NCBI RefSeq assembly: GCF_026712205.1
Contig: NZ_JAPPUW010000011.1
Span: forward strand, 62,001-126,000
DNA length: 64,000 bases
Direction: 5' to 3'
Source of the DNA: Pelomonas aquatica
GTDB taxonomy: Bacteria; Pseudomonadota; Gammaproteobacteria; Burkholderiales; Burkholderiaceae_C
The notes under the pieces were generated by a model. The model had not been told where the DNA came from. It worked only from the letters and a program-made list of their open reading frames with translations, and did not search any database. Numbering within the stretch: the stretch's first letter is position 1; each line of letters opens with the position of its first letter. Below, one piece after another: positions 18,885 to 64,000 of the stretch. Made by a program: the position numbers and the translations under genes.

Positions 18885-20010
<1,126 letters not shown>

Positions 20011-51177: not shown

Positions 51178-51975
51178 GTGGCAACACCCTTGCAGGTCGA
51201 AGACCACCGGATCGCCCATCCGCGCGGCCGGCTGTTCGCGCGCTCCTGGGCGGCGGCCGGCGCTGCGGCGCGCCGGGCGCCCATCGTGCTGCTGCACGAT
51301 TCGCTGGGCTGCGTCGAGCTGTGGCGCGACTTCCCCGCCGCGCTGTGCGAGGCCACCGGCCGGCGCGTCGTCGCCTACGACCGGCTGGGCTTCGGCCGCT
51401 CGGACGTGCGCGACGGCCCGATGCCGCCGGACTTCATCGCCGACGAGGCGAGCCGCTTTTTCCCCGTCGTGCTGCAGGCCTTGGGCATGCGGCGCTTCGT
51501 CGCCTTCGGCCACAGCGTCGGCGGCGGCATGGCGGTGAACTGCGCGGCACGGTGGGCCGACGACTGCGAGGCGCTGGTCACCGTGTCGGCCCAGGCCTTC
51601 GTCGAAGACCGCACCGTGCAGGGGCTGCGGGTCGCCCGGGAGCAGTTCAAGGAGCCAGCGCAGATGCAGCGGCTGGCCAGGTACCACGGCGACAAGGCCG
51701 CGTGGGTACTGGAGGCCTGGCTGGGGACCTGGCTCAGCGCCGAGTTCGCGGGGTGGTCGCTGGAGGGCGTGCTGCCGCGCGTGAGATGCCCGGCACTGGC
51801 GATTCACGGCGCGGACGACGAGTACGGGTCACCGGCGCATCCGGCCCTGATCGCTGCCCGGGCCGGCGCTCCGGTCCGGATCGAACTGCTGGCGCAGACC
51901 GGGCATGTGCCGCATCGCGAACGGCCCGAAGCGGTGCTCGAAGCGGTCGCGGCGTTGCTGGCGTCGGCCGGCTGA
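51178..51975 (+). CDS. Alpha/beta-fold hydrolase
   Basis: A 265-residue alpha/beta hydrolase. APIVLLHDSLGCVELWRDFPAAL contains the oxyanion region (LLHDSLG), YDRLGFGRSD lies in the N-terminal core, the nucleophile elbow is GHSVGGG, the acid is in IHGADDEYGSP, and the catalytic His is in TGHVPHRERPEAVL. It may hydrolyse an ester or lactone; the substrate is unknown. It starts at GTG (51178), just after the MFS stop. It is the last core gene before the tRNA fragment and island. Confidence 0.85.
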   Translation: MATPLQVEDHRIAHPRGRLFARSWAAAGAAARRAPIVLLHDSLGCVELWRDFPAALCEATGRRVVAYDRLGFGRSDVRDGPMPPDFIADEASRFFPVVLQALGMRRFVAFGHSVGGGMAVNCAARWADDCEALVTVSAQAFVEDRTVQGLRVAREQFKEPAQMQRLARYHGDKAAWVLEAWLGTWLSAEFAGWSLEGVLPRVRCPALAIHGADDEYGSPAHPALIAARAGAPVRIELLAQTGHVPHRERPEAVLEAVAALLASAG

Positions 51976-52002: not shown

Positions 52003-52033
52003 CAACGGCTCCCCGAGGGGAGCCGTTGCGTTT
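52003..52033. terminator. Perfect 26-base hairpin between the hydrolase gene and the tRNA-Phe fragment
   Basis: CAACGGCTCCCC and GGGGAGCCGTTG flank GA (52,003-52,028) and are followed on the plus strand by CGTTT. On the minus strand the hairpin lies just past the CCA end of the tRNA fragment, the place of a tRNA terminator. It may serve either direction; T tracts are short. Confidence 0.6.
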
Positions 52034-52077
52034 GGTGGCCTGGGGCGGAATCGAACCACCGACACGCGGATTTTCAA
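52033..52077 (-). other. tRNA-Phe 3' fragment: likely att site at the left end of an integrative island
   Basis: Read on the minus strand, this is the 3' half of a tRNA-Phe gene: TGAAAATCCGCG (anticodon GAA and 3' anticodon stem), variable loop, GGTTCGATTCC (T arm), then the acceptor strand ending CCA at 52,033. The 5' half (D arm and 5' acceptor strand) is missing; upstream sequence does not restore it. This is what a duplicated 3' end left by tRNA-targeted integration looks like. The orientation predicts the intact gene at the far, right-hand end of the island, outside the window. Confidence 0.8.
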
Positions 52078-52309
52078 TGGGAATCCGCGTGCGCGGCAGG
52101 AACGAACCCACACGCAACAATTAACAAAATCAAGCACTTAGAGCGCACTCGACCGCAGTCAAACGCATCCCCGCGCACTCGAATCCCGTCGTGACTGCCA
52201 GACCAGCGCCAGAAATTTCTATACCTCTAGCCCCTGGCCGTCACACGCCTGAGAAGTGTAGCAACCGCCTGTTCGCCGCGACACCGTGGCCGCCCCGGAC
52301 CGGGCGGGC

Positions 52310-53413
52310 TCAAGGAGGAGGCAGCACCGCGCTGTTGAACAGGTTCATCCTCAGGGTCTTCTCCCGGCGCAGCAGCTCGCGCATCGGCGCCGTCAGGTAA
52401 ATCGCCGTCTTCAGCTTGGCCGAAGGCAGGTGGCCATACTTGGTCGCCACCTCCGCCAGGGTGCGCCTGGCGGCCGCGCTGAGCACATCGACCTGCGACG
52501 CGCCTCCGAGCAGGTCCTCCTGGCCGAGCGACACCATCAGGTGCTTGCCGATGGTGCGCGTGTAGCAGCCCGGGATGAGCGCGGCCAACCGGCTGGCGTG
52601 CAGCTCGACGCAGTAGGGGCCATCTTTCTGGCGCACGTAGTAGCCCTCCGTGAGGCGCTCCGAGGCGGCCTCGAGGTGCCGGACCTCGGCCATGAACAGC
52701 AGCTTGTGCAGGGCGAAGTAGCTCAGCTCCCCGCTTTCCTCGAGCAGCACCCGCGCTGCAGCACCGACCTTCTCCGACGCCCGGCTCAGCTTGGCCGAGG
52801 GCTTGCGCCGCACTGCACCGCTGCCGCGGCGCACGGCCTCGGCAATGAACTGGTAGTCCGCCAGCTGGTTGGCGAAGCTGCGATGCACCATCGCGCGCTG
52901 GCCCGGGTGGTAGGCCGGAATGAGCTGGCGCCCCGCCCAGGGGTGAGCCTTGCGCACGCTGTCCTTGAGGGTGAGCGTGTGAGCCGTGACCAGTGCTGTG
53001 GCTCGCAGGGCGACTGCGCCCAGCGTCACGACCACCGGGGCGCCCACCAGCTCCAGCTGCTCCTTCAGGAACGGGGCGCAGTTGGCCACCTCCGAGTGAG
53101 ACGGCGTGGCGTTGTTGCCGTTCTCGTCCTTCGGATTGCACAGCACGGCGTTGGTCACGAAGGCGTCGTAGCGGCTCAGCCCCACCTGCTCCAAGAGCGA
53201 CTCGAAGTTGTGGCCGGATTTATCGCCATGGAACGGCAGCTCCGAGGCGTCGGCGCCGAGCCGTCCCGGGGCTTCGCCGATGAACATCACTTTGGCGCTG
53301 AGCGAGCCGCAGCCCGCGCCCAGAACCCGCGCGCTGTCCGCCATGCGCGGGCAGCGCTGGCATGCCTTCACGCGGCGCACAAGGTCAACAAATTGCTGTT
53401 CTTTATCCGCCAT
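52310..53413 (-). CDS. Family-4-like uracil-DNA glycosylase fused to a Panacea/DUF4065-like domain
   Basis: A 367-residue two-domain protein. Residues about 1-195 are a UDG fold with cysteines placed for an Fe-S cluster (CxxC at 18 and 21; later ones in TNAVLCNP and EVANCAPF). Family motifs are MFIGEAPGRLGADASELPFHGDKSG (motif 1) and AYHPGQRA (motif 3). Residues about 215-340 resemble the Panacea/SocA-like antitoxin domain: LHKLLFMAEVRHLE, LTEGYYVRQKDGPYC and LAEVATKYGHLPSAKLK. The domain pairing is unusual. It is the last gene of a three-gene operon, starting seven bases after the ThyA-like stop; the GTG just before this ATG is an alternative start. The domain calls are from motif recall. 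Confidence 0.75.
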   Translation of the reverse strand: MADKEQQFVDLVRRVKACQRCPRMADSARVLGAGCGSLSAKVMFIGEAPGRLGADASELPFHGDKSGHNFESLLEQVGLSRYDAFVTNAVLCNPKDENGNNATPSHSEVANCAPFLKEQLELVGAPVVVTLGAVALRATALVTAHTLTLKDSVRKAHPWAGRQLIPAYHPGQRAMVHRSFANQLADYQFIAEAVRRGSGAVRRKPSAKLSRASEKVGAAARVLLEESGELSYFALHKLLFMAEVRHLEAASERLTEGYYVRQKDGPYCVELHASRLAALIPGCYTRTIGKHLMVSLGQEDLLGGASQVDVLSAAARRTLAEVATKYGHLPSAKLKTAIYLTAPMRELLRREKTLRMNLFNSAVLPPP

Positions 53414-53419
53414 CACCGT

Positions 53420-54127
53420 TCAAGCCGCCAGGGCGCGCAATGCTTCGACCTTGCCGCCGTTGTAGGCGTGCACCGAGTGGCACAGCAAGCGACCGGGCGT
53501 CTTGCCCGATGCGGCGCATATGAAGTTCAGGAGCTGGCCCAGGCCGATGAAGTTGCCCAGCGCCTTGTTGAAGAAGTCGTGGTTGCGGTAGACCACCACC
53601 AGGTCGAGCCGGTCGCCTGGATGCCAGACGATTTCGCCGAACTGCCAGCAGGGCCCGCCGCGAGTGCGGGGAGTATCGCGGGCCGGCGTCGACAGATGGA
53701 ACACCAGGCTCGTCCCGCTGCGCTTCGGCCAAGTGCTGAGCTTGCTGATGACAGTCTCGAGCTGGTTGGTGTCGGGATGGTCGGGAAAACGGACGAGCCG
53801 CTCGAAGTAGGTTCCCCAGGTCCCGCGGTTGCGAACGAACCGCATAGCGCGGTCGTGCCGCCGCAGGTATTCGCGGTACAGCTCTGGCCGGTCAGCGATG
53901 CGTTGGGCCAGGTCGTACGGAAAGATGGTCTTGATGACCTCGCGCAGGTCGTCCCCGACGAATCCCCTGCGTCGCGGCGAATGGGCCTGAAGCCAGTTCA
54001 GGTCGAAAAAGATGGGCTGCTCGATGGTCGTGAACAAGTTGAAGACCTCGGTCTCCGTCAGCACGGCTTGCACGCCCTGGCGCCAGCCATCCAGCGGCGT
54101 GGTACCGGCCACATTGCGGGCAGTCAC
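53420..54127 (-). CDS. Thymidylate-synthase-fold protein (ThyA-like)
   Basis: About 235 residues, shorter than ThyA (264). The C-terminal half matches the ThyA dUMP site: a GPCWQF segment carries the candidate nucleophile Cys, RLDLVVVYRNHDFFNKALGNFIGLGQLLNF aligns with the ThyA QRSxD...PFN region (Arg, Asp and Asn +8 after Asp all kept), and LCHSVHAYN supplies the His/Tyr pair. The N-terminal half (NRGTWGTYFERLVRFPDHPDTNQLETVISKL) looks like ThyA's YGxxxR region. It could methylate or hydroxymethylate a dNMP, or only bind one. It starts at GTG 54127, overlapping the upstream stop (GTGA), so expression is coupled to the MazG-like gene. Confidence 0.72.
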   Translation of the reverse strand: MTARNVAGTTPLDGWRQGVQAVLTETEVFNLFTTIEQPIFFDLNWLQAHSPRRRGFVGDDLREVIKTIFPYDLAQRIADRPELYREYLRRHDRAMRFVRNRGTWGTYFERLVRFPDHPDTNQLETVISKLSTWPKRSGTSLVFHLSTPARDTPRTRGGPCWQFGEIVWHPGDRLDLVVVYRNHDFFNKALGNFIGLGQLLNFICAASGKTPGRLLCHSVHAYNGGKVEALRALAA

Positions 54128-55035
54128 AGCGCGTCCCCGGCTACCGGCGGCGGGTGGTAGGTCAGGGTCTGGCGGTCCAGGTCCACGTCGACCGTGCCGC
54201 CACGGTGTTGCTGCAGTTGCTTGAACGCCGAGTAGCCCTGGAGGATTGCGGCCTTCCACTGCTTTGCGGTACAGCTGTGGACTTCCAGCCCCGCGGTCAG
54301 GCGGATGATGGTCTTGAGCAGTCCGATGTCGACCGAGCTCTCCTCGCTGTACCAAGCTCGCTGCGGCGCTTCATTGAAGACAAGCACCGAGATGGCCTCC
54401 TCGACCACTGCCGCACGGCCACCGTCCTCGATTTCGTCGATGCGCGAATTACTCTTGCGCTTGCGCCGCAAGAGGCTGCGGATGACCGGTGACCAGCCGA
54501 GCACGGCGGCGTAGGCCAGGTGAAAGACGTCGTGATAGCGGTAGCCATCCCCCTTGTGGGCGTTGTCGGTCAGGGTGTCGCCGACGATGACGCCACTGAC
54601 CATGATGCGGACCAGCACTTGCTTGGCGTTGCGCTTCTCCGAGAACGTGACGCTGAACTGCCGAGGCAGGCGCTCCTCCTCATCAAAGCCGTCATCGAAG
54701 TGGTTCACCTCACCTTGAGAATAAAGACGCTCGGCCTTGCGCGCACTCTCCCGTGCCACCTCCTGCAGCGGAATCTTGTGTAGGACCGCGAGACTGGTCA
54801 GGTACCAGAGGATGTCGCCGATGTCTTCGCGAAGGTCGCCGCGAAGCGTTCGGCTGTCGCGTTGCAGCACCAGCTTCTTGAAGGTCGAATTGAGGTCGCC
54901 GAGCTCACCCGCCAGTCCGAGCAAGGACACGATGACTTTCTTGCGCTCGTCAGTTCGCTCGACCATGGCCTGGTACTCGGCGAACGTACGAATCGGCTTC
55001 GGGCCGCTGTCCTTGCGGCCTGTTGGGCTTGGCAT
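54124..55035 (-). CDS. MazG-like nucleotide pyrophosphohydrolase with extra C-terminal domain
   Basis: A 303-residue protein, first gene of the operon. Residues about 30-95 are an all-alpha NTP pyrophosphatase domain: LLGLAGELGDLNSTFKK and LREDIGDILWYLTSLAVL give the ExxxD/ExxD acidic metal-binding pattern of MazG. A separate C-terminal half has DGYRYHDVFHLAYAAVLGWSPVIRSLL and EIEDGGRAAVVEEAISVLVFN, rich in His/Asp/Glu and conserved-looking; I do not know its function. MazG enzymes hydrolyse NTPs or modified dNTPs. The next gene overlaps by four bases. Confidence 0.75.
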   Translation of the reverse strand: MPSPTGRKDSGPKPIRTFAEYQAMVERTDERKKVIVSLLGLAGELGDLNSTFKKLVLQRDSRTLRGDLREDIGDILWYLTSLAVLHKIPLQEVARESARKAERLYSQGEVNHFDDGFDEEERLPRQFSVTFSEKRNAKQVLVRIMVSGVIVGDTLTDNAHKGDGYRYHDVFHLAYAAVLGWSPVIRSLLRRKRKSNSRIDEIEDGGRAAVVEEAISVLVFNEAPQRAWYSEESSVDIGLLKTIIRLTAGLEVHSCTAKQWKAAILQGYSAFKQLQQHRGGTVDVDLDRQTLTYHPPPVAGDAL

Positions 55036-55206
55036 CCGCTCCCTCCATCGCGCCTTGAGCGCATTTGGCGGGAACTTAACGCAATTTGTGAGCTGACAGC
55101 GTCAGATTTTCCCCAGTCTCCAAACAGGAACCGACGCAGCCAGTCCATTCGTATAAAGATGCCCCAGCGCTCGCCGGGGCATCGAATCAAGTCAGCGGTG
55201 CTCAGC

Positions 55207-55470
55207 TCATCGGTAGCCCGTGCGCTTGACCCGCGCGGCTTCGCCCAGCTCGTCATGCTCTGAACCGCGGTCGGTCCGCCCGGTGCGCTTGCGCGGAGGC
55301 CGGAGCGCCACATGTCGCAACGCCAGTGCATTCAGATGCTTGGCGATGGTGGTGTAGCTCCCCGCCGACAGTTCCAACCGCAGGTTACGCGGTCCCGGAA
55401 TGCGCCCTTGCCGGAGCAGCGCAACGTATGCACGCACGACGTCCACGCTCGTTATGCCTGGTCTTCCCAT
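55207..55470 (-). CDS. KfrA N-terminal-like DNA-binding protein
   Basis: An 87-residue protein whose GITSVDVVRAYVALLRQGRIPGPRNLRLELSAGSYTTIAKHLNAL segment matches the helix-turn-helix of plasmid KfrA proteins. The coiled coil that normally follows is missing; a basic tail (RPPRKRTGRTDRG) takes its place. KfrA binds its own promoter on plasmids. The ATG at 55470 is the first Met of the conserved domain. A hypothetical gene is divergent at 55643. Confidence 0.6.
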   Translation of the reverse strand: MGRPGITSVDVVRAYVALLRQGRIPGPRNLRLELSAGSYTTIAKHLNALALRHVALRPPRKRTGRTDRGSEHDELGEAARVKRTGYR

Positions 55471-55642
55471 TGATGTCCTCGCTTGGTTGCGGCAGCGCGG
55501 AAGTGCGCTGCCTGCAGCGTGTAGCGAGGGTTCAAGGCTGCCCTGCAAAGGGCCGCACACCGCCGTTACGTAACCGGAATCGCTGGCGCGTTTAAAGCTC
55601 GCCCCGCAGGATTAGCGGCACCACAACTCTGGGAGCTGCGAC

Positions 55643-56482
55643 TTGCACACCCTCATCAAACCTGCCCATCAATCGGTACGCACGGTGCTGCACCTGAGCC
55701 CCGCGGTCACGAGCGCCGCACTCACCGAGGCGCAGCGTCATCAACAAGGTCTGGCCGAATGGGTCGAGCGCCTCGTCGTGGATTCCTGCGCCGCTGGCGA
55801 CGGCCATTTGGAGCGCCGACTCAGCGAGCTGATGTCCGTAGAGCTCTTCGCCCACGTGGCAAGCAACTGTCCCGGCGCGCTCGTCGGCCGTTGGCGGCTG
55901 CTGTATGACAGGTGCCTGCTGGAGCCGGCGCTGTGGCGCTACCCGGTGGTGACGCTCGAGGAGGCGGAAACTGCGGGCACGGACCTCCAGCCTACGCTAG
56001 ACGCCGCCGAGCTGCTACGCCGCTGGCCGGCACTGGTAGGCCCGCATTTCTTCAAAAAGGTCGTCCGGGATATGGAAATGACCCCAGCCGCCAGTGAATC
56101 CGATGGAGCTGAAGTAGCTCTTGCCATCGAGCTTCAGGCGGTTGTAGAGCGAAGAACGCCCCATCGAAGAAGAGGTCGTGACAGCAACCAATCTGGCGTT
56201 CTTGGCTTCCCCAGATATGACGCCCTCAGTCCCGCCGTACCGCTCCTTGAAATCGTTGTAGACGTCGCGCGTTCGAATCAGGCTGGCTATGAGCTTTCCG
56301 CCGAGCAGCATGTTGTAGGGCGGCACCGCCCCCAGCACGTACGCGTCCATCAGATTGACCAAGCGGTGCTCACGGTCGGCGAAGGTCCATCCGATGTGGT
56401 TGTCCCGCGCGCTCATGTTGTAGACCGGGTCGCCAATCGCGAAGATGCCAATCAGCTTTCCGTTGGACTTGTCCCAAACTAG
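55643..56482 (+). CDS. Hypothetical gene, 5' part only; fused by a junction to antisense DruA-like sequence
   Basis: Not recognised. The first 130-odd codons (HTLIKPAHQSVRTVLHLSPAVTSAALTEAQRHQQGLAEW..., DAAELLRRWPALVGPHFF) have normal coding bias. From about base 56,040 onward the frame only reads the complement of the DruA-like gene on the other strand. The simplest view is that recombination joined the 5' part of this gene to the 3'-truncated DruA-like gene, so the stop at 56,482 is accidental. It is divergent from the KfrA-like gene, which may regulate it. Confidence 0.4.
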   Translation: MHTLIKPAHQSVRTVLHLSPAVTSAALTEAQRHQQGLAEWVERLVVDSCAAGDGHLERRLSELMSVELFAHVASNCPGALVGRWRLLYDRCLLEPALWRYPVVTLEEAETAGTDLQPTLDAAELLRRWPALVGPHFFKKVVRDMEMTPAASESDGAEVALAIELQAVVERRTPHRRRGRDSNQSGVLGFPRYDALSPAVPLLEIVVDVARSNQAGYELSAEQHVVGRHRPQHVRVHQIDQAVLTVGEGPSDVVVPRAHVVDRVANREDANQLSVGLVPN

Positions 56483-56899
56483 GTAGCGCAGACGTCGTCC
56501 AAAGCCAGCGGAGACGGGAACAGACCAGGTCAGCGAGGCCAGTCGGAAGAGCTTTGCCTCAAGACCAGCACCAGTCACGAGCTGGAGGACCGGCCGAATC
56601 GCCTCGGGGCGTACGTCACTGCCAGAGGCGAAGTACTTCTTTAGCGTTGACAGGTTGGCCGCGACGAAAGCAGCGTTCTCAGCAAGCTTGTCCTCGCGCT
56701 GCTTTCGGTGCAATGTCCGGACGGTGTCCTTGGACGCGTCAGGCAGCACCAGCGCACCGGTTTCGTCCTTGCTAAAACCTAGGTCAGCAAGATGCTGTCT
56801 GAGGTGACGCTTGATGCGCGCCTCAGGCGTAAAGGCCTCCGCAGCTTTCTTGACGGTCATCGTTGTGTTTGCCAGCGCCTCCCGAGCGCGGAGCAACAT
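56015..56899 (-). CDS. DruA-like (DUF4338) protein, C-terminally truncated
   Basis: A 294-residue protein of the Druantia DruA/DUF4338 family. Matching blocks are LASLTWSVPVSAGFGRRLRYLVWD, GIFAIGDPVYNMSARDNHIGW, LVNLMDAYVLGAVPPYNMLLGGKLIASL, VAVTTSSSMGRSSLYNRLK and SIGFTGGWGHFHI. Druantia is an anti-phage system, but single DruA-like genes also occur in mobile elements. The family usually continues about 100 residues past GHFHI; here it ends soon after DDLFEEMR at a junction with an oppositely oriented gene, so activity is doubtful. No DruE helicase gene is in the window. Confidence 0.68.
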   Translation of the reverse strand: MLLRAREALANTTMTVKKAAEAFTPEARIKRHLRQHLADLGFSKDETGALVLPDASKDTVRTLHRKQREDKLAENAAFVAANLSTLKKYFASGSDVRPEAIRPVLQLVTGAGLEAKLFRLASLTWSVPVSAGFGRRLRYLVWDKSNGKLIGIFAIGDPVYNMSARDNHIGWTFADREHRLVNLMDAYVLGAVPPYNMLLGGKLIASLIRTRDVYNDFKERYGGTEGVISGEAKNARLVAVTTSSSMGRSSLYNRLKLDGKSYFSSIGFTGGWGHFHIPDDLFEEMRAYQCRPAA

Positions 56900-57015
56900 G
56901 GTAAACCTTTGTTAACCGCCCAGCCGAGGGGTCCCCGCCTGCGGCAGCCTCCCCGAAGAATGCCATGCGGCGAGCACCCTGACGCGGCCTTTGGTCGACT
57001 GCACCGGAGCAGCAC

Positions 57016-59109
57016 TCACATTCGCCGCAACGTCGCCCCTAGCAACTCGGTCATGCGGTTCGCCCCCTCCGAAGACCGTAGGTGCGCATAGTTCTTCTCC
57101 ACAGTGCTCATCCGGTCGTTCAAGACGAGCGCAGCCGTCTTGAAGTCCGACAGGTCTGAAGCCTTGATGATGGCGGTCGCCACGAGGTGCCGGAAAGCGT
57201 GCGTGCCGATGCCTGCGCATCGCCATAGGTATTTGGCGGTCAAGTGCTCCACCCGCCTGGAAAGGTCGGTCCACGGCAGTGCCGGGTCTCTCACGGTGCT
57301 TCCATGACTCCCAGCCAGGAACACGTAGTCGGAATCGCAGCGCAGCATTCGGGGGCGATAGACCTTCAAGTACCGCTCGAGGTCTGACCAAGCCATCTGC
57401 TGCACAGGCATGTCGTATTCGTTGTCGCCCGCGGCACCACGCGTGTTTTTGAAGTGCCCTCGCTCAATTCGAAGCCACCAGGAGCCGTCCCCACGCTGAT
57501 AGAGCTCCCCAGTGTTGTCTGCCCGCCAGGTCATTACCGCCAGATTGCGAAGGCGCAGCGGATTAGAGACCAGGAGCTTGATGAGCGCGACGTCACGCGC
57601 CCAAATGGCCTCTCTCATCGGAGCGCCACCGATGGGCCGGTCCGCTCGCAGGCGCTGCACCATGTCTGCAACCATCTCCAAAGGCTTCTCCAGGTCCAGG
57701 ATGTGTCGCATCGGCGCGCGAGGGTCACGGGTTTGGACGCGTGAGCTTTGCGTCTTAACGGACATCGCGTTGAGAAGCTGGTATGTCTCCTCGCACATGC
57801 GTTGCCAGTCCCGCTCACGAAACTCGGGCGGCAGCGTGTCCTTCATGCTCGGGAGCTGCCAGAGGTAGCCAACGCTCGCCCGAAGCATGGAATTCGCTTT
57901 GGCGAAAAATTCAAACGCTGAGCCGTTGTACTTGCCTCCGCTACGTCGCACCATCCACCGGACATAAGCGTCGACCTTCTCCCTGACGGCGAGCCAGGCG
58001 AGGGTTTCAGACTGCTCCTTTGGCATGCCCAGGCCGCCGTGCTCGGGAGAAAGCGAAAGCCAGCCCAAATAAGCCGCGACTTTGGCCCAGGTCATGCGCG
58101 CGCTCGGAATTTCCACGCCATCAAGGTACTCAGCCCAAGAGCTCGGCGTCTCAGGACGGAACTCGAACGGCGCAGGCCGCCAACTTCCCCGGTTGCTTCT
58201 CAGCAAGACCGGATGGAAGTCTGTCTTGTATCGCACGAACTCCTGCCACTGGGCTCGCAACGGCGACTCAGGTTCGGGCTTGGCGAAGTAATGCAGGCTG
58301 GTGCGCTCGGACAGTTCGTCTCGGTATGAGACTGCCGGTGGCTGGCCAATGGGAACCACCCGCTCGCGGACACCGCGTCGGAATCCTGCCAAGGTCGCCA
58401 ATTCGCCTTCGCTGATGCCGAAATGCCGCTCCACCTTGTAGATGTGCTTGAGGCTGCTGATGCGCGGCTTTTTCCCCTTCAGCCAACCGTAGACCATGTC
58501 GCGAGGGATGGTGAGCAGCTTGGCCAGCCGGTCGGCAGGGATGTCTTTCAGCAGGGCTTTGAATGCCTGGCTATAGGGCGGCAGGTTCTCGCCCGCCATG
58601 GCGCGCTCGGTATCGAGGCGGACGAGGATGTCCCGCCAGGGCCGAAGCGCGGCCAACGTGTTGGTGACGTTCCGGGGAGTCGTCCCTCGTTCGGCGAGGC
58701 CCTCGGCAAATTCTCGAAGCTTCTCGCTGAAGCTCACGCGGAATTCCGTTCCCACGGGGTCGTTCACCTCCAGGTGATTGTGGCGAAGGAACGAGCGCAG
58801 CGCTGCCGCCCGGTTCGCTGCGGTCTGCTGCTTGACGATGTCTTGTTGGACGAGGCGCTCCTGAATGTCCAGGAGGTCTTGGTAGGTGATGGGCTGAGCC
58901 ACGGGCTTTCTCCGCGCCCGCACCCCTGAAGCTGTCGCCCGCGAAGCAGGAATTGGCGACGGCTCGAAATACCTGCGAACTTCGTAACCCAATGATTTTT
59001 CATAACTTTTCCTCACTTTGATATCCCACCCTTCTGATTTAAGGGAGGGACAAATGCAGGTAGTCAGATATTGGGTGCTCGCAGCGACAAGGGCTGGGCG
59101 AAATTTCAC
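57016..59109 (-). CDS. Tyrosine site-specific recombinase with internal HTH-like domain
   Basis: A 697-residue phage-integrase-type protein, longer than typical (about 400). The C-terminal catalytic domain shows Arg in NPLRLRNLAVMTW, HxxR in GIGTHAFRHLVATAI, and the tyrosine in VEKNYAHLRS. The N-terminal part has a core-binding-like helical region (QDLLDIQERLVQQDIVKQQTAANRAAALRSF). Around residues 185-235 lies a Cro-like HTH (RLAKLLTIPRDMVYGWLKGKKPRISSLKHIYKVERHFGISEGEL). Composition is lower in G+C than the core. It is divergent from the gene at 59227. It could drive island integration at tRNA-Phe, though its distance from the att site weakens that. Confidence 0.8.
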   Translation of the reverse strand: MKFRPALVAASTQYLTTCICPSLKSEGWDIKVRKSYEKSLGYEVRRYFEPSPIPASRATASGVRARRKPVAQPITYQDLLDIQERLVQQDIVKQQTAANRAAALRSFLRHNHLEVNDPVGTEFRVSFSEKLREFAEGLAERGTTPRNVTNTLAALRPWRDILVRLDTERAMAGENLPPYSQAFKALLKDIPADRLAKLLTIPRDMVYGWLKGKKPRISSLKHIYKVERHFGISEGELATLAGFRRGVRERVVPIGQPPAVSYRDELSERTSLHYFAKPEPESPLRAQWQEFVRYKTDFHPVLLRSNRGSWRPAPFEFRPETPSSWAEYLDGVEIPSARMTWAKVAAYLGWLSLSPEHGGLGMPKEQSETLAWLAVREKVDAYVRWMVRRSGGKYNGSAFEFFAKANSMLRASVGYLWQLPSMKDTLPPEFRERDWQRMCEETYQLLNAMSVKTQSSRVQTRDPRAPMRHILDLEKPLEMVADMVQRLRADRPIGGAPMREAIWARDVALIKLLVSNPLRLRNLAVMTWRADNTGELYQRGDGSWWLRIERGHFKNTRGAAGDNEYDMPVQQMAWSDLERYLKVYRPRMLRCDSDYVFLAGSHGSTVRDPALPWTDLSRRVEHLTAKYLWRCAGIGTHAFRHLVATAIIKASDLSDFKTAALVLNDRMSTVEKNYAHLRSSEGANRMTELLGATLRRM

Positions 59110-59226
59110 TTCGCCAAGCGTGTAGCGCGGACTTTTTAAATTCTCGTCAGCATCGACGAAAAATTCTCAGGGCGTCTGTTTCGCTGTCTATACGAAGTCC
59201 CTAGGCCATTTTTTTAAAAGGAAACC

Positions 59227-59865
59227 ATGGATTTCGTAGACGAAATAGATGCAGTTAGCCGCGTGCGCGTAGGCGAGGTACTCGGACCGGAGGCTGTGCG
59301 TGCGCAAGGTGCTCAGTTCTTACCGCCGCTCGAAATGGAGTGCTTCAGTCTCGGTGTGAGCGTGCCGAACTGGCTCGTGTGCGCGCTTGAAGGCAATGCC
59401 GGTCGACTCACGCAGTTCGGCGTCATCCGCGCCAACGGTAGCTCGGACCTTTTTGGGTTCTGTGTCGCTCAATCGAAGGGAACGCAGCTGCGGGTATTGA
59501 TGTCGCTGCATGCGGCGGACGTCCGGAAATATCTGCAGGACTGCTCACATCGTGGACGCTTGCATATGCTTCTCACGCCGGAAAACACCTCGCAAGTCTT
59601 GGCGCTTGAAATGCCGGGAAGATTCTCAAGCCCGGCGCTCTTGGCGAAGATTTTTGAAGATTGCCCGCTGGGGAAGACGAGTGCGGAGGCAGTCACCGAG
59701 CTCACGCGGTTGATAGCCGACGTCAACGCCGTGCCGTCGCTCTTTGAGGGCGTTCAGGTGACAGATGCAATCGCTGTTGTCATCGCTGACGTTGACCTCT
59801 TGCGAGCGCTACGGGCACTGCGAGACGCGGCTCTGGGGCAAGCTGGCTCGTCAGCCTGCCATTGA
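59227..59865 (+). CDS. Hypothetical protein, 212 aa, divergent from the recombinase
   Basis: I do not recognise this protein. It has alternating hydrophobic strands (FSLGVSVPNWLVCALEG, LFGFCVAQSKGTQLRVLMSLHA, RLHMLLTPENTSQVLALEM) and a helical C-terminus with SAEAVTELTRLIADVNAV. An AT-rich 117-base divergent region with T7 and A4 tracts precedes it, and AAAAGGAAACC gives a good ribosome-binding site. It ends at a rho-independent terminator, so it is a single-gene unit. Codon use is much less G+C-rich than the core. Confidence 0.7.
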   Translation: MDFVDEIDAVSRVRVGEVLGPEAVRAQGAQFLPPLEMECFSLGVSVPNWLVCALEGNAGRLTQFGVIRANGSSDLFGFCVAQSKGTQLRVLMSLHAADVRKYLQDCSHRGRLHMLLTPENTSQVLALEMPGRFSSPALLAKIFEDCPLGKTSAEAVTELTRLIADVNAVPSLFEGVQVTDAIAVVIADVDLLRALRALRDAALGQAGSSACH

Positions 59866-59895
59866 CGGCGTCGCCGGGAGACTGCGTCATTCATA

Positions 59896-59929
59896 GGGAG
59901 CGCGGCCGCAGGCCTCGCTCCCTTTTCTT
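59896..59929 (+). terminator. Rho-independent terminator after the 59227 gene
   Basis: GGGAGCG (59,896-59,902) pairs with CGCTCCC (59,916-59,922) around a GC-rich loop and is followed by TTTTCTT. It lies 31 bases after the hypothetical gene and isolates it from the AbiE pair. Confidence 0.75.
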
Positions 59930-59972
59930 GCCCCGCCATCGGCAGCGGCTCCCGCGCCAGAGACGAGCCCAC

Positions 59973-60067
59973 GAATGAAAAATTCCTGTTTGTTGGCGTT
60001 TGGAGCCAACTTCTCGGTCTACATCATTCATGCGATTTGCCACTGAATGAAAAATCCTCTAATGTTG
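59973..60067 (+). promoter_or_regulatory. Two 23-nt direct repeats upstream of abiEi
   Basis: GAATGAAAAAT begins both 23-base units (59,973-59,995 and 60,045-60,067); each ends TGTTG and 17 of 23 positions agree. TTGGC...GCCAA forms a small hairpin between them. The second ends just before the abiEi start. AbiEi antitoxins repress their own operon by binding repeats of about this size, so these are likely operators. Confidence 0.6.
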
Positions 60068-60071
60068 CGAC

Positions 60072-60818
60072 ATGTCGTCAACAACCGACACCGTTTCATT
60101 CAAAGAGGTTCTCCGGGCCCACCCGAGAGGCGAGCCCCTCGGTACCGCCGCGCTCAAACGCCTTGGTGTCACCCCATTCCGCGCCTCGGCGCTGGCCCGC
60201 AGCGGCTGGCTCGACCACCTCGCCCGCGGCGTCTACATGTTGCCCGGAGACACCCTCAGCAGAGACGGCTCCCTGGCCTTCCTGGCCGAGCAGATTCCCG
60301 GACTTCATGTTGGCAGCAAGACGGCCCTCTCCTGGCGAGGCGTGCGGCAGAACATCGCCTTTCGCGAGACCTTGACCCTCTGGGGCGACCGCGCCAAACC
60401 CCTCCCCGCCTGGTTCACCCAGCGTTTTCAGGCGCGCTACCAAGCGACCCAGCTCTTCGACGACACGCTGCCCGTCGGGCTCGGCCTGCAACCGCTACCG
60501 AACGGCGACACCCGCGTCTTGGTGTCCGTACCCGAGCGGGCCCTCCTGGAGCTGCTGAGCGACCTTGGCAAAACCCAATCCCTGAGCGAAGCACGCGAGC
60601 TCGTCGAGGGCCTGCCCAACTTACGCCTCCAGGTACTGGATGAGCTGCTCTCGCACACCCTCCGCATCAAAGTGGTCCGAGCAGCAGCCAGCTTGGCCGC
60701 TGAGCTGAACCTTCCCTGGGCCGCCATGGCCAAACAGCACAGCCTGCGCATCGGCGGCGGCACCCGCTGGATTGCGGTGTCCAAGACCGGTGAGCGCCTG
60801 GACTTCAAAAAACCATGA
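60072..60818 (+). CDS. abiEi: AbiEi-family antitoxin (type IV toxin-antitoxin)
   Basis: A 248-residue protein with an N-terminal winged-helix AbiEi domain (LGTAALKRLGVTPFRASALARSGWLDHLARGVYMLP) and a second C-terminal domain (LVSVPERALLELLSDLGKTQSLSEARELVEG). AbiEi represses the operon and neutralises the AbiEii nucleotidyltransferase. The gene overlaps abiEii by four bases (ATGA). Direct repeats upstream fit autorepression. Length is typical. Confidence 0.85.
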   Translation: MSSTTDTVSFKEVLRAHPRGEPLGTAALKRLGVTPFRASALARSGWLDHLARGVYMLPGDTLSRDGSLAFLAEQIPGLHVGSKTALSWRGVRQNIAFRETLTLWGDRAKPLPAWFTQRFQARYQATQLFDDTLPVGLGLQPLPNGDTRVLVSVPERALLELLSDLGKTQSLSEARELVEGLPNLRLQVLDELLSHTLRIKVVRAAASLAAELNLPWAAMAKQHSLRIGGGTRWIAVSKTGERLDFKKP

Positions 60819-61735
60819 CCGACGACTACATCGCCACCGTCCGCTTGCTGCTGGACATCGCCCCCACCGTGTTTCGTTCGGGCCTCTTCGCGATGAAGGG
60901 CGGCACGGCCCTGAACCTGTTCGTGCAGGACATGCCTCGCCTCTCGGTCGACATCGACGTCGTCTTTGTCGACCACGCGCCGGACCGCGAGGCCGCGCTG
61001 GCCGCCATTGGTGCCGAACTTCGCAATGTTCAGCAAGCGCTCCAAGACCGTGGGCTGGTCGTGCGTTTGCCGGGCAACGCGCAAGGCGACGAGGTGCGGT
61101 TGTCGGTCAATGGCCCCAACGCCCAGGTCAAAGTGGAGGTGAACTTCGTCTTCCGGGGCACGGTGTTGCCCGTCCAATCTCAACCCTTGGCACTCAGCGC
61201 GCAGGACTTGTTCACAACGAATGTGTCGCTGCCCGTCCTCGCCCCCGCGGAGCTCTATGGCAGCAAGCTCGTGGCAGCCATGGACCGCCAACACCCCCGC
61301 GACATCTTCGATGTGATGCACATGTTGCAGCGCTTCGGATGGACGGCCGAGGTGGTCGACTGCTTTGTCGCCTACCTGGCCGGCCACAACCGGCCCGTGC
61401 ACGAAGTTCTCTTTGGCCCCGCGAAGTCTTTGGAGCCCGCGTTCACGAACGAGTTCGTTGGCATGACGCGAGACGAAGTGCCCCTTGCGATGCTTGCAGA
61501 GACCCAAGCCCAGCTGCGCCACGAGCTGCCTCGGCAACTCGCCCCTCGTCATCGCGAGTTCCTGCTGTCGTTGGTGCGCGGCGCCCCCGATTGGCCCTTG
61601 ATGCCCTTCGAGCAGCTCCAGGACCTGCCCGCCATTCGCTGGAAGCTGCAGAACCTCGCCACCCTCAAGAAACGCAACGCCGCCCGGTTCGGAGAGCAAG
61701 AAAGCCTGCTGGCCCATGGCTTTGACACGCTGTAG
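60815..61735 (+). CDS. abiEii: AbiEii/AbiGii-family nucleotidyltransferase toxin
   Basis: A 306-residue MNT-fold toxin. The nucleotidyltransferase motif is KGGTALNLFVQDMPRLSVDIDVVF (GG plus DxD), with KVEVNFVFRG as the third acidic strand and YGSKLVAAMDRQHPRDIFDVM as the typical second motif (K and RDxxD). AbiEii-type toxins transfer nucleotides to tRNA or other targets and cause growth arrest during phage infection. It is translationally coupled to the antitoxin gene. All the usual catalytic residues are present, so it is probably active. Confidence 0.88.
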   Translation: MTDDYIATVRLLLDIAPTVFRSGLFAMKGGTALNLFVQDMPRLSVDIDVVFVDHAPDREAALAAIGAELRNVQQALQDRGLVVRLPGNAQGDEVRLSVNGPNAQVKVEVNFVFRGTVLPVQSQPLALSAQDLFTTNVSLPVLAPAELYGSKLVAAMDRQHPRDIFDVMHMLQRFGWTAEVVDCFVAYLAGHNRPVHEVLFGPAKSLEPAFTNEFVGMTRDEVPLAMLAETQAQLRHELPRQLAPRHREFLLSLVRGAPDWPLMPFEQLQDLPAIRWKLQNLATLKKRNAARFGEQESLLAHGFDTL

Positions 61736-61781
61736 TGCGCCAGTGCACCCTATCGCAGGCCACAAAGCGCCAGCCCAACCC

Positions 61782-62897
61782 TTACACGACGGGCTTAACG
61801 AAGGGCCCCAACCACGAGCACGATTCGGGCGGCTCTCGCAGCGCTGAGACGCGTCTGTCCATCGGATTCATCTCCGCCACGAGTTCCGTCGCCAGGTCCA
61901 ACCATGCCCGGGCCTCCGGCGGGAGCTCGGTGTCACCGATGGCCACCGACAACGCCTGCAGATAGCCTCCAAGGTCAACAGCGTGTCGCCAAGCCTGAGC
62001 CTCCTTGGCGAGTCCTTCCGCAAAGTTCTTGCGTTGCTGGCGGCGCCGCTCGGCGGCTTCTCGGATGGCTCGCTGCTCCGCCCAGTGTCGGGCTTGGGCC
62101 TCACGCTCCTGACGCAAGCGCACGGTGGCCTCGCCCGCCGCGACGATGCCGTGAGCGATGGCCGCAAGCTTGTTCTCCAGCCGGTCACGCGTGCCGTCGC
62201 CCCAGCTCTTACGCCCGGCGTAGTGCCCTTCCAAGCTGAGCCTCAACTGTCCATTGAACTTGTAGTCGTATTCGCGCCTGTCGAAGTAGCTGTGCGGCGA
62301 CGGTTTGACCGGCCTCTCAATGCGTCGATGGCCCTCCGTCAGGCTCACCCCGAGCAGCTCGCCCTGGACGCGGATGGCGACCCGCTTGCCTTCCTTGTCA
62401 TGGACCAGCGCAGCACCGACTTGAGGCAAGACGCGTTCGAGGGCATCCAAACTAAGCGCGGCGCGACGAACCGTCTGCGCCGACAGACTGCAGCGCACCA
62501 CCTGGGCTGAGCCGCAGCCCAAAAAGCCACTGGCCGTCGGTTTCGCTTTCGAGAGCGCAGCAAGCGTCGCAGCGGCCACGGGCGCCAAGACCTCGGCCTC
62601 CGAATCGCGCACGGTGACGGCCACCGCTGGCGCAGGAACTGATGCCTCCGCCACGGCGGGGAGCCGGTGCTGCTGAGCGTTCAGCGTCACCATCTCATCG
62701 CCCGAACCAGACAGCGGTGGACGCGACACGGTTTGTCCATGCCGCACCTTGGCCCAGTAGCCCACGGGCGGAGTCGGAACGCCGTGCTTTCGGCAGGCCT
62801 TCGACAACCCGACGTCCGAGATATCAAACTCCTTCGCCAAGATGCGAATCGGTGTGTGCCACACGCGTTGATAGAGGTCCCTGCGAGAAATTTGCAT
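61782..62897 (-). CDS. Hypothetical protein, 371 aa, with N-terminal HTH-like segment and coiled coil
   Basis: Function unknown. The N-terminal ISRRDLYQRVWHTPIRILAKEFDISDVGLSKACRKHGVPTPPVGYWAKV is a conserved HTH-like block seen in many proteobacterial hypothetical proteins. A middle region follows (RKSWGDGTRDRLENKLAAIAHGI), then a charged coiled coil (RQEREAQARHWAEQRAIREAAERR) and a compact C-terminus ending SWLGPFVKP. I took ATG 62897 because it starts the conserved block; the longer upstream frame is less well conserved in style. It lies on the strand opposite the abiE genes. Confidence 0.72.
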   Translation of the reverse strand: MQISRRDLYQRVWHTPIRILAKEFDISDVGLSKACRKHGVPTPPVGYWAKVRHGQTVSRPPLSGSGDEMVTLNAQQHRLPAVAEASVPAPAVAVTVRDSEAEVLAPVAAATLAALSKAKPTASGFLGCGSAQVVRCSLSAQTVRRAALSLDALERVLPQVGAALVHDKEGKRVAIRVQGELLGVSLTEGHRRIERPVKPSPHSYFDRREYDYKFNGQLRLSLEGHYAGRKSWGDGTRDRLENKLAAIAHGIVAAGEATVRLRQEREAQARHWAEQRAIREAAERRRQQRKNFAEGLAKEAQAWRHAVDLGGYLQALSVAIGDTELPPEARAWLDLATELVAEMNPMDRRVSALREPPESCSWLGPFVKPVV

Positions 62898-63114
62898 CCA
62901 CGGCTCCGCGCTGAAAGCACCCTGGCACGGGATGAAATCCATTCGGCCGCACCCGCCCGTCCCTGGGGCTGACGGCATTTTCGTGAAGAGCCCTTCGACC
63001 CTCACCAATGGCACGCAGCCCAGACTGGATGCGGCAACACGGCTCAAGACGAACGGCGGGATAAACATCAGCGCCTAAACGGGACATCACCTGTTTTTCA
63101 TGAGGCCACCCGCG

Positions 63115-63324
63115 ATGTCCACTGCTACTTCCCCCATCCTGCTTAAAAAGGCCGAGGTCTGCCAACGCCTGTCGATGTCTGTCCGTGCCCTGGAAGGCAA
63201 GGTCAAGGAGGGCGCATTCCCTCCCCCAGTTCGCCTAGGCAAGCACGTCTACTGGAGTGAACTTGCGGTCAACGCGTGGAAGGCGCGCATGTTTGGGCCG
63301 CAGGAGGCATGGCGCCCCCGCTAA
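63115..63324 (+). CDS. AlpA-like small regulatory protein
   Basis: A 69-residue protein with a single winged-helix of the AlpA/MerR-like type: ILLKKAEVCQRLSMSVRALEGKVKEGAFPPPVRLGKHVYWSELAVNAWKARM. Such proteins control integrase or excision genes in islands and prophages. An in-frame ATG at 63100 is an alternative start. The gene is flanked by two minus-strand genes. Confidence 0.78.
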   Translation: MSTATSPILLKKAEVCQRLSMSVRALEGKVKEGAFPPPVRLGKHVYWSELAVNAWKARMFGPQEAWRPR

Positions 63325-63345
63325 GGCACGTGTTGGCTGGCGCTC

Positions 63346-64000
63346 TCAGCGAGCCCAGCCTAAGTCACGCAGAAGGAAGGCAAACGCTTCGAGCGCAAAC
63401 AAGCCGTCCGCTTCCGTCACCGGCGGCGTGCCCAGCCGGACCTGCTCGTTCGGCTTCCCACGTGGATGCAGCATGCGGATGATGTCGGCCGCGCTGCGCC
63501 GAAGCTTGGCTTGCTCGGGCAAAGCGGCAACGACCTCCCCCAGGTCCTTCTCAAGCAGGTCCCGGGCCTTCCCCTGCTCGACCAGCATTTCCGCCAGCAC
63601 CACCGTCGCCGCCGCCCGGCACAAGTCCACCAAAGCAATGCCACTCTGACGATGGGCGGCGTCCACCACTTTGGCGACCGCCTCGGTCACTCGCTTGCGA
63701 GCAGCGGCCGGGATGGCCTCGGTCAGCAACTCCGGCAAGAAGCCAAAGTTCAAGCGCGCCTTCAGGGTCACGACATCGTGGTCATGGTCCGCGCGCTCCA
63801 CCGCGACGACGCTCCATGCCGTCACAGCAGGTTGGGCGCCAAGAACCACCACAGGTTCCGGCGAGGGCCCCAGCCGCTCCACGAGCCGCGTCATCGGCAC
63901 GAACGTCAGCAGCGACAGGTTCACTTGGCCCGCGCCGTTTTTCGTCTTGCTCGCATCGCTGGCCGTCGGATGTGGATGGACCCACCACAGCGCCGGTTGG
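63346..64000 (-). CDS. Hypothetical protein, C-terminal part (5' end outside window)
   Basis: The frame is open to the window edge, so the N-terminus is missing; a GTG at 63924 looks internal because coding continues upstream (PALWWVHPHPTASDASKTKNGAGQ). I do not recognise it. It contains VNLSLLTFVPMTRLVERLGPSPEPVVVLGAQPAVTAWSVVAVE and a helical C-terminus (RKRVTEAVAKVVDAAHRQSGIALVDLCRAAATVVLAEML, DIIRMLHPRGKP). It is convergent with the AlpA-like gene. Its position suggests island replication or maintenance, but that is a guess. Confidence 0.6.
   Translation of the reverse strand, partial: QPALWWVHPHPTASDASKTKNGAGQVNLSLLTFVPMTRLVERLGPSPEPVVVLGAQPAVTAWSVVAVERADHDHDVVTLKARLNFGFLPELLTEAIPAAARKRVTEAVAKVVDAAHRQSGIALVDLCRAAATVVLAEMLVEQGKARDLLEKDLGEVVAALPEQAKLRRSAADIIRMLHPRGKPNEQVRLGTPPVTEADGLFALEAFAFLLRDLGWAR

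Follow-up and report, generated by a model that had tools for sequence, protein, structure and literature searches.

A genomic island bounded by an intact tRNA-Phe gene and a displaced 3′ fragment of that gene in Pelomonas aquatica

What is the 3′ half of a tRNA-Phe gene doing on its own in the Pelomonas aquatica genome, at the point where core genes stop and genes of an apparent island begin? The locus lies in a window, by which we mean the whole 64,000-nucleotide stretch that was analysed (C3:62001-126000, in a genome of 5.12 Mb and 56 contigs); positions prefixed with C3 refer to the contig and all others to the window. An earlier note, made from the sequence alone, had described a minus-strand stretch of 44-45 bases at 52033-52077 with the anticodon, T arm and CCA end of tRNA-Phe and without a 5′ half. 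Alignment to the tRNA bears this description out and fixes the exact extent at 46 bp:

52033-52078, minus strand: displaced tRNA-Phe 3′ fragment (attL core), a 46-bp direct repeat of C3:128090-128135

The fragment is an exact copy of tRNA positions 31-76, running from the last base on the 5′ side of the anticodon stem through the anticodon loop, variable region and T arm to the acceptor strand and CCA, and the sequence at the expected position of the 5′ half differs. ARAGORN calls no tRNA at 52033-52078, and Rfam reports no family at gathering score anywhere in the 64-kb window. ARAGORN does return a "tRNA-???" with an undefined anticodon at 19934-20010 on the plus strand, which is absent from both the RF00005 matches of the genome and the Rfam matches of the window and was rejected as a false call.

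The 44-base core of the fragment occurs exactly twice in the whole genome at up to three mismatches, both times on the minus strand of C3, and the same pattern read backwards has no occurrence at all. Since the genome contains 53 tRNA matches (RF00005) but the core sequence only twice, the fragment does not reflect general tRNA similarity. The second copy, C3:128090-128135, lies inside an intact tRNA-Phe (GAA) gene on the same contig and strand (C3:128090-128165, window coordinate 66090-66165), to the right of the fragment and about 2.1 kb beyond the end of the window. An intact gene with a matching 3′ end had been predicted for just this side, beyond base 64,000, and the same 46-base end is indeed found there. 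The gene is the sole tRNA-Phe among the tRNAs called by ARAGORN in 30 fetched loci of the 53 matches. With both copies extended, the repeat is 46 bp long, exact and in the same orientation, at a spacing of 14,057 bp.

On its left the fragment is separated by 57 bp from the last core gene, an alpha/beta hydrolase ending at 51975, and on its right by 231 bp from the first cargo gene. The GC content of the enclosed segment is 63.5%, against 71.8% in the left flank and 72.0% in the right flank. The features of its ends are as follows:

52033-64000, no strand: part of the island inside the window; the remainder extends to C3:128135 (window coordinate 66135), with the integrase at C3:126314-127699 (minus strand)
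52003-52028, no strand: hairpin with 12-bp perfect arms and a 2-nt loop
52063-52091, no strand: inverted repeat with 10-bp arms and a 9-bp spacer, spanning the attL boundary, with one arm in the tRNA fragment and the other on the island side
52131-52140, plus strand: CAAGSACTTA motif, with an inward-facing partner copy at the other end (C3:128060-128069)

The Islander survey uses a regenerated tRNA gene and a displaced fragment as marks of island ends, and according to its available text the fragment is a 3′ one in 3,760 of 3,919 islands and the site is anticodon-centred in 2,083 (PMC4383910). Measured against the Islander criteria, the intact gene and the fragment stand on one contig with a tyrosine integrase between them, the length of 14,057 bp falls within the limits of 2-200 kb, and the fragment reaches the end of the tRNA gene (CCA), has the same orientation and lies on the 3′ side of the gene. 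The fragment also overlaps no conserved protein domain among the genes scanned, the nearest ones with a family match having their ends at 51975 and 52310 (unnamed ORFs overlapping the fragment lay outside the scan). No relaxase or conjugation gene was recognised by Pfam in 10 ORFs of the window (small ORFs and C3:125925-126313 lay outside the scan).

A sequence closely similar to the inverted repeat at 52063-52091 is seen by eye at the left ends of the related islands in genomes G052, G266 and G140. The CAAGSACTTA motif, which was picked after inspection of the island ends, is present in one inward-facing copy at each end and has no further copy in either the 64-kb window or the 17.5-kb island region, and it may be regarded as a candidate integrase arm site.

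The tyrosine integrase of the island (C3:126314-127699, minus strand) is 461 aa long from its ATG, matches PF00589 (E 3.4e-20, 73 bits) and starts 390 bp from the 3′ end of the tRNA, and it appears to carry the catalytic set R, K, HxxRH and Y. Its relatives at E 1e-40 or better are found in 10 of 299 genomes of the family, representing 10 of 141 genera and including our own, and in all ten a tRNA-Phe lies within 2 kb of the integrase match. The tRNA was called within the 1.5-kb flanks of the integrase in nine of the ten; the exception is G193, with a partial integrase match (43%, residues 4-227), a tRNA-Phe 1.9 kb away and another ORF between. A 3′ tRNA-Phe fragment without the 5′ half is present in six of the ten genomes, on the same contig in our own genome (G000), G052, G313 and G260 and on another contig in G140 and G266. 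With the pattern used, a displaced fragment was not found in G075, G282, G193 and G243, of which G075 and G282 have contigs that end near the integrase or were read over only 1.5 kb. In G313 and G260 the displaced fragments appear by eye to be followed by further attP-like sequence, which suggests tandem elements at tRNA-Phe. Searches with the integrase gave no match in genome_contigs, in plasmids (E 1e-30) or in 50,697 phage records (E 1e-20), and no excisionase was recognised in the island.

The site without the island was sought in relatives with a query made of the two island flanks joined together, run on 20 genomes of the genus including our own. The tRNA-Phe and ntrX side is matched in 20 of 20, and in three of the 19 others (G006, G008 and G011) the match runs unbroken from inside the terminator through the tRNA into ntrX; the terminator part of the query is unmatched in the remaining 16. 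Fourteen of the 19 loci were read further. The hydrolase is missing from G011, where its neighbour in our genome, the MFS gene, ends no more than 70 bp from the tRNA. The thioredoxin-like and MFS genes likewise stand near the tRNA in G005, which has the hydrolase, and in G016, which lacks it, with 1.4 and 0.6 kb between; in G005, the closest relative, about 1.4 kb separates the hydrolase from the tRNA. These three genomes thus have the left-hand neighbours near tRNA-Phe, ntrX and ntrY without the island, and a look at island-free relatives, as the earlier note had proposed, shows either the tRNA followed by a similar terminator (G006, G008, G011) or the same left neighbours close by (G005, G011, G016). 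None of the cargo genes of the island was found in the 14 stretches, and the only integrase match among them is a distant one in G004 (30%, about 4.5 kb from the tRNA). All the empty sites come from other species, and they differ among the relatives. G007 and G013 carry integrase-like genes 134 and 173 bp from the same tRNA-Phe, which look different from the integrase of the island and which we take to be of the P4/DUF4102 type, and this indicates that the site has been reused.

The hairpin at 52003-52028 can be read as a terminator which once stood 3′ of tRNA-Phe before integration and has ended up 14 kb away from the intact gene. If the original 3′ flank was displaced, a similar hairpin should follow the tRNA in relatives, and one is found directly 3′ of it in G006, G008 and G011, with 25 identities in alignments of 35, 35 and 36 positions, respectively, compared with 18 of 37 for the sequence now 3′ of the tRNA in our own genome and 16 of 38 for G005. 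The sequence 3′ of tRNA-Phe is variable within the genus. Just past the terminator hairpin in G006 and G008, a degenerate inverted stretch resembling the tRNA-Phe 3′ end can be seen by eye, perhaps a trace of an old rearrangement at the same site.

The locus is best explained by a 14,057-bp integrative genomic island that entered tRNA-Phe (GAA), with the fragment being the displaced original 3′ half of the gene, and we put the probability of this reading at about 97%. It builds on what was observed of the repeat and its orientation, on the integrase and the preference of its lineage for one site, and on the relatives in which that site is contiguous. The proposal that the fragment marks an island integration site between core and island genes is thereby upheld, with the integrase standing beside the intact tRNA and the sites contiguous in relatives without the island. 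In the likely course of events, the tyrosine integrase of the island would have recombined its attP with the attB within the tRNA gene, most likely in the anticodon loop, where the exact crossover would then lie. The island would have brought its own copy of tRNA positions 31-76, so that the chromosomal 5′ half became joined to the island copy and a whole tRNA gene was formed at the right end, and the original 3′ half together with its terminator would have been displaced to the left end as the present fragment. The element may also be able to excise.

The cargo between the two ends includes the following genes:

52310-53416, minus strand: uracil-DNA glycosylase (family 4-like) fused to a SocA/Panacea-like domain (PF03167 E 2.6e-25; PF13274 E 4.5e-5, just under the cut-off)
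53420-54160, minus strand: thymidylate-synthase-like protein (TIGR03283 E 3.4e-12, below the curated cut-off; no Pfam match)
54124-55035, minus strand: MazG / MazG_C protein (PF18722 E 1.4e-81; PF03819 E 0.0016, under the cut-off)
56015-56899, minus strand: DruA (DUF4338) protein (PF14236 E 4.6e-73; PADLOC DruA E 1.7e-138)
57016-59109, minus strand: 697-aa tyrosine-recombinase-like protein, rec697 (TIGR02224, XerC, E 1.4e-6, below the curated cut-off)
59227-59865, plus strand: 212-aa protein adjoining rec697 (26% identical homologue beside rec697 in the G052 island; no Pfam or PHROG match)
60072-60818, plus strand: AbiEi antitoxin (PF11459, PF17194; PADLOC E 5.6e-56)
60815-61735, plus strand: AbiEii nucleotidyltransferase toxin (PF08843 E 3.7e-40; PADLOC E 3.6e-106)
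61782-63068, minus strand: 428-aa protein with no family match above cut-off (41% identical protein in the G140 island)
63346-63924, minus strand: ORF left of the integrase in its 192-aa reading; a longer 328-aa reading starts beyond the window end

The adjacent AbiEi and AbiEii genes, overlapping by 4 bp, have the arrangement of an AbiE type IV toxin-antitoxin system. A Druantia system combines DruA with the further genes of its type, among them the DruE helicase, and with DruA alone among the scanned cargo the island does not hold one by this definition. The matches suggest that a large part of the cargo would function in defence. The 192-aa reading of 63346-63924 has no family match in Pfam, PADLOC or PHROG. 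A small ORF at 55207-55473 (minus strand) has no NCBIfam or PADLOC match, and it may resemble the N-terminal DNA-binding domain of KfrA.

The rec697 protein itself has no match in Pfam, PADLOC or PHROG, and its kinship with tyrosine recombinases is suggested by an alignment of seven homologues, where an NPLR arginine, a lysine, an RH pair and a C-terminal tyrosine are present in all seven and the histidine of the HxxRH motif in six, with a glutamine in its place in G312. The same alignment points to a possible internal helix-turn-helix-like region. Relatives at E 1e-60 occur in six of 299 genomes of the family, our own included, and the match in G234 contains one in-frame stop. Four of the seven inspected tRNA-Phe islands carry rec697 (those of our genome, G052, G260 and G313); G266 has only a 49-residue match, and none was detected in the stretches read in G140 (14.5 kb) and G243 (19 kb). 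G312, G234 and G285 also have rec697, and the 12 kb read there contains neither a repeat nor a tRNA. As a guess, the protein may have an accessory part in movement.

The cargo of related islands was sampled by a PADLOC scan of 19 mostly large ORFs from crude gene lists of five other islands. Six ORFs in G052 include a DruE-like helicase, a type IIG restriction-modification protein, a SIR2/ThsA-like protein and a UvrD-type helicase, with two unmatched, the three in G260 are the M, S and R genes of a type I restriction-modification system, and the two in G313 are a type I methyltransferase and a protein matching both methyltransferase and specificity models (a 1041-aa gene of G313 lay outside the PADLOC scan). 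Four ORFs in G266 encode HerA, SIR2, a helicase and an HmaB-like methyltransferase, and four in G140 encode a type II methyltransferase, a helicase, an LmuA-like protein and one unmatched product; in both genomes this cargo is on the left-end contig and not on the integrase contig, and it would belong to one island with the integrase. The six ORFs of G243, scanned with Pfam only, are mixed and include an AbiEi domain, a resolvase, ParB/RepB, a tape-measure protein, PIN and a DDE transposase. Altogether, defence-type genes occur in six of the seven inspected islands, a count taken with no control regions alongside and with the cargo of G075, G282 and G193 outside the scan.

Could the fragment have arisen without any island? 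Fragments of tRNA genes do arise by decay, and the degenerate inverted tRNA-like stretch seen by eye near the terminator in G006 and G008 might be taken as a local example, but a decayed pseudogene or local duplication unrelated to the island would hardly be 100% identical over 46 bp, end exactly at the CCA, keep the orientation of the intact gene and face it on the same contig across an integrase-bearing segment of low GC. We therefore rejected a pseudogene or chance copy, and its probability appears negligible. A composite origin, in which at least two elements were inserted successively at the same tRNA and the last integrase is the only one still recognised as an integrase, draws on the two tyrosine-recombinase-like genes (C3:126314-127699 and 57016-59109) and on the left ends in G313 and G260, which by eye abut more attP-like sequence suggestive of tandem elements there. 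However, our genome has only two copies of the repeat, the left-end sequence is by eye close to that of G052, so that the two ends would fit a single element, and the second recombinase recurs in three other islands of the same kind, which makes successive insertion quite improbable.

Somewhat more credible, albeit still unlikely, is that the segment is a cryptic prophage or phage satellite and not a phage-free genomic island. The integrase does resemble phage integrases (PHROG 1, E 2.9e-41), and a tape-measure protein is found in the G243 region beside a related integrase; on the other hand, the scanned cargo ORFs showed no recognisable gene for phage structure or replication (Pfam and NCBIfam, with PHROGs on five proteins), and the integrase has no relative among the phage records searched.

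Among the cargo, the three genes next to the left end appear to form a conserved operon. In the thymidylate-synthase-like protein, C171, R192, D195, N203 and H231 are invariant in six sequences and presumably match the active-site residues of thymidylate synthase. All three genes are found together in five of six other loci that contain a relative of this protein (G099, Roseateles, Mitsuaria, Pigmentiphaga and an alphaproteobacterial MAG), at protein identities of 48-90%; the sixth, in Rheinheimera, has thymidylate-synthase-like and MazG matches and no uracil-DNA glycosylase match. The thymidylate-synthase-like gene is rare in the family sample (two of 299 genomes at E 1e-15), its plasmid relatives are distant (15 records, all below 60% identity, and 27-35% among the matches listed), and it has no match in viral contigs, phages or PDB sequences. 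PADLOC 2023 has no match for the MazG, thymidylate-synthase-like or glycosylase-Panacea protein, and in the literature as indexed and available no description was found of a MazG, thymidylate synthase, uracil-DNA glycosylase and Panacea operon. The available text of the DefensePredictor study counts thymidylate synthase among the domains whose part in defence is newly validated and places MazG, MazG-C and uracil-DNA glycosylase among predicted defence systems, so the idea of a defence role is not wholly new; the combination of MazG, thymidylate synthase and glycosylase-Panacea was not found in that text, and Panacea is absent from its main text (PMC13092281). Judged by sequence, the conserved module could be an uncharacterised, possibly nucleotide-based defence system.

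As far as the available text of the Islander paper goes, nothing essential sets the present island apart from the islands collected there, which have an intact tRNA gene at one end, a 3′ fragment at the other, a tyrosine integrase between and, in class A, an anticodon-centred site (PMC4383910). A further parallel is offered by E. coli mobile elements at tRNA-Phe, which, in the available part of their description, carry Zorya, Druantia and ARMADA and share with our island the tRNA-Phe target, direct repeats, a site-specific integrase and defence cargo including a Druantia-type gene (PMC12458937). Those elements have repeats of 16-20 nt, excisionases and HUH endonucleases, whereas the present island has a repeat of 46 bp, no recognised excisionase or HUH gene and a second large tyrosine recombinase. 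The element is thus a tRNA-targeted genomic island of an ordinary kind, and less usual are the second large recombinase in four of seven islands and the conserved MazG, thymidylate synthase and glycosylase module. We tentatively raise a further idea, which at present we consider rather doubtful, that these islands represent an undescribed family of tRNA-Phe-specific defence carriers, often with a second recombinase of some 700 aa, and that the MazG, thymidylate-synthase-like and glycosylase-Panacea proteins would form an anti-phage module whose targets are uracil or modified thymidine nucleotides of phage DNA.

A fragment first seen by eye has in this way led to a mobile element with exact boundaries. 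Its integrase lineage is linked to tRNA-Phe across ten genera of a single family, with the cargo changing from island to island. The exact ends show which genes arrived together, among them a nucleotide-metabolism operon that makes a testable defence candidate.
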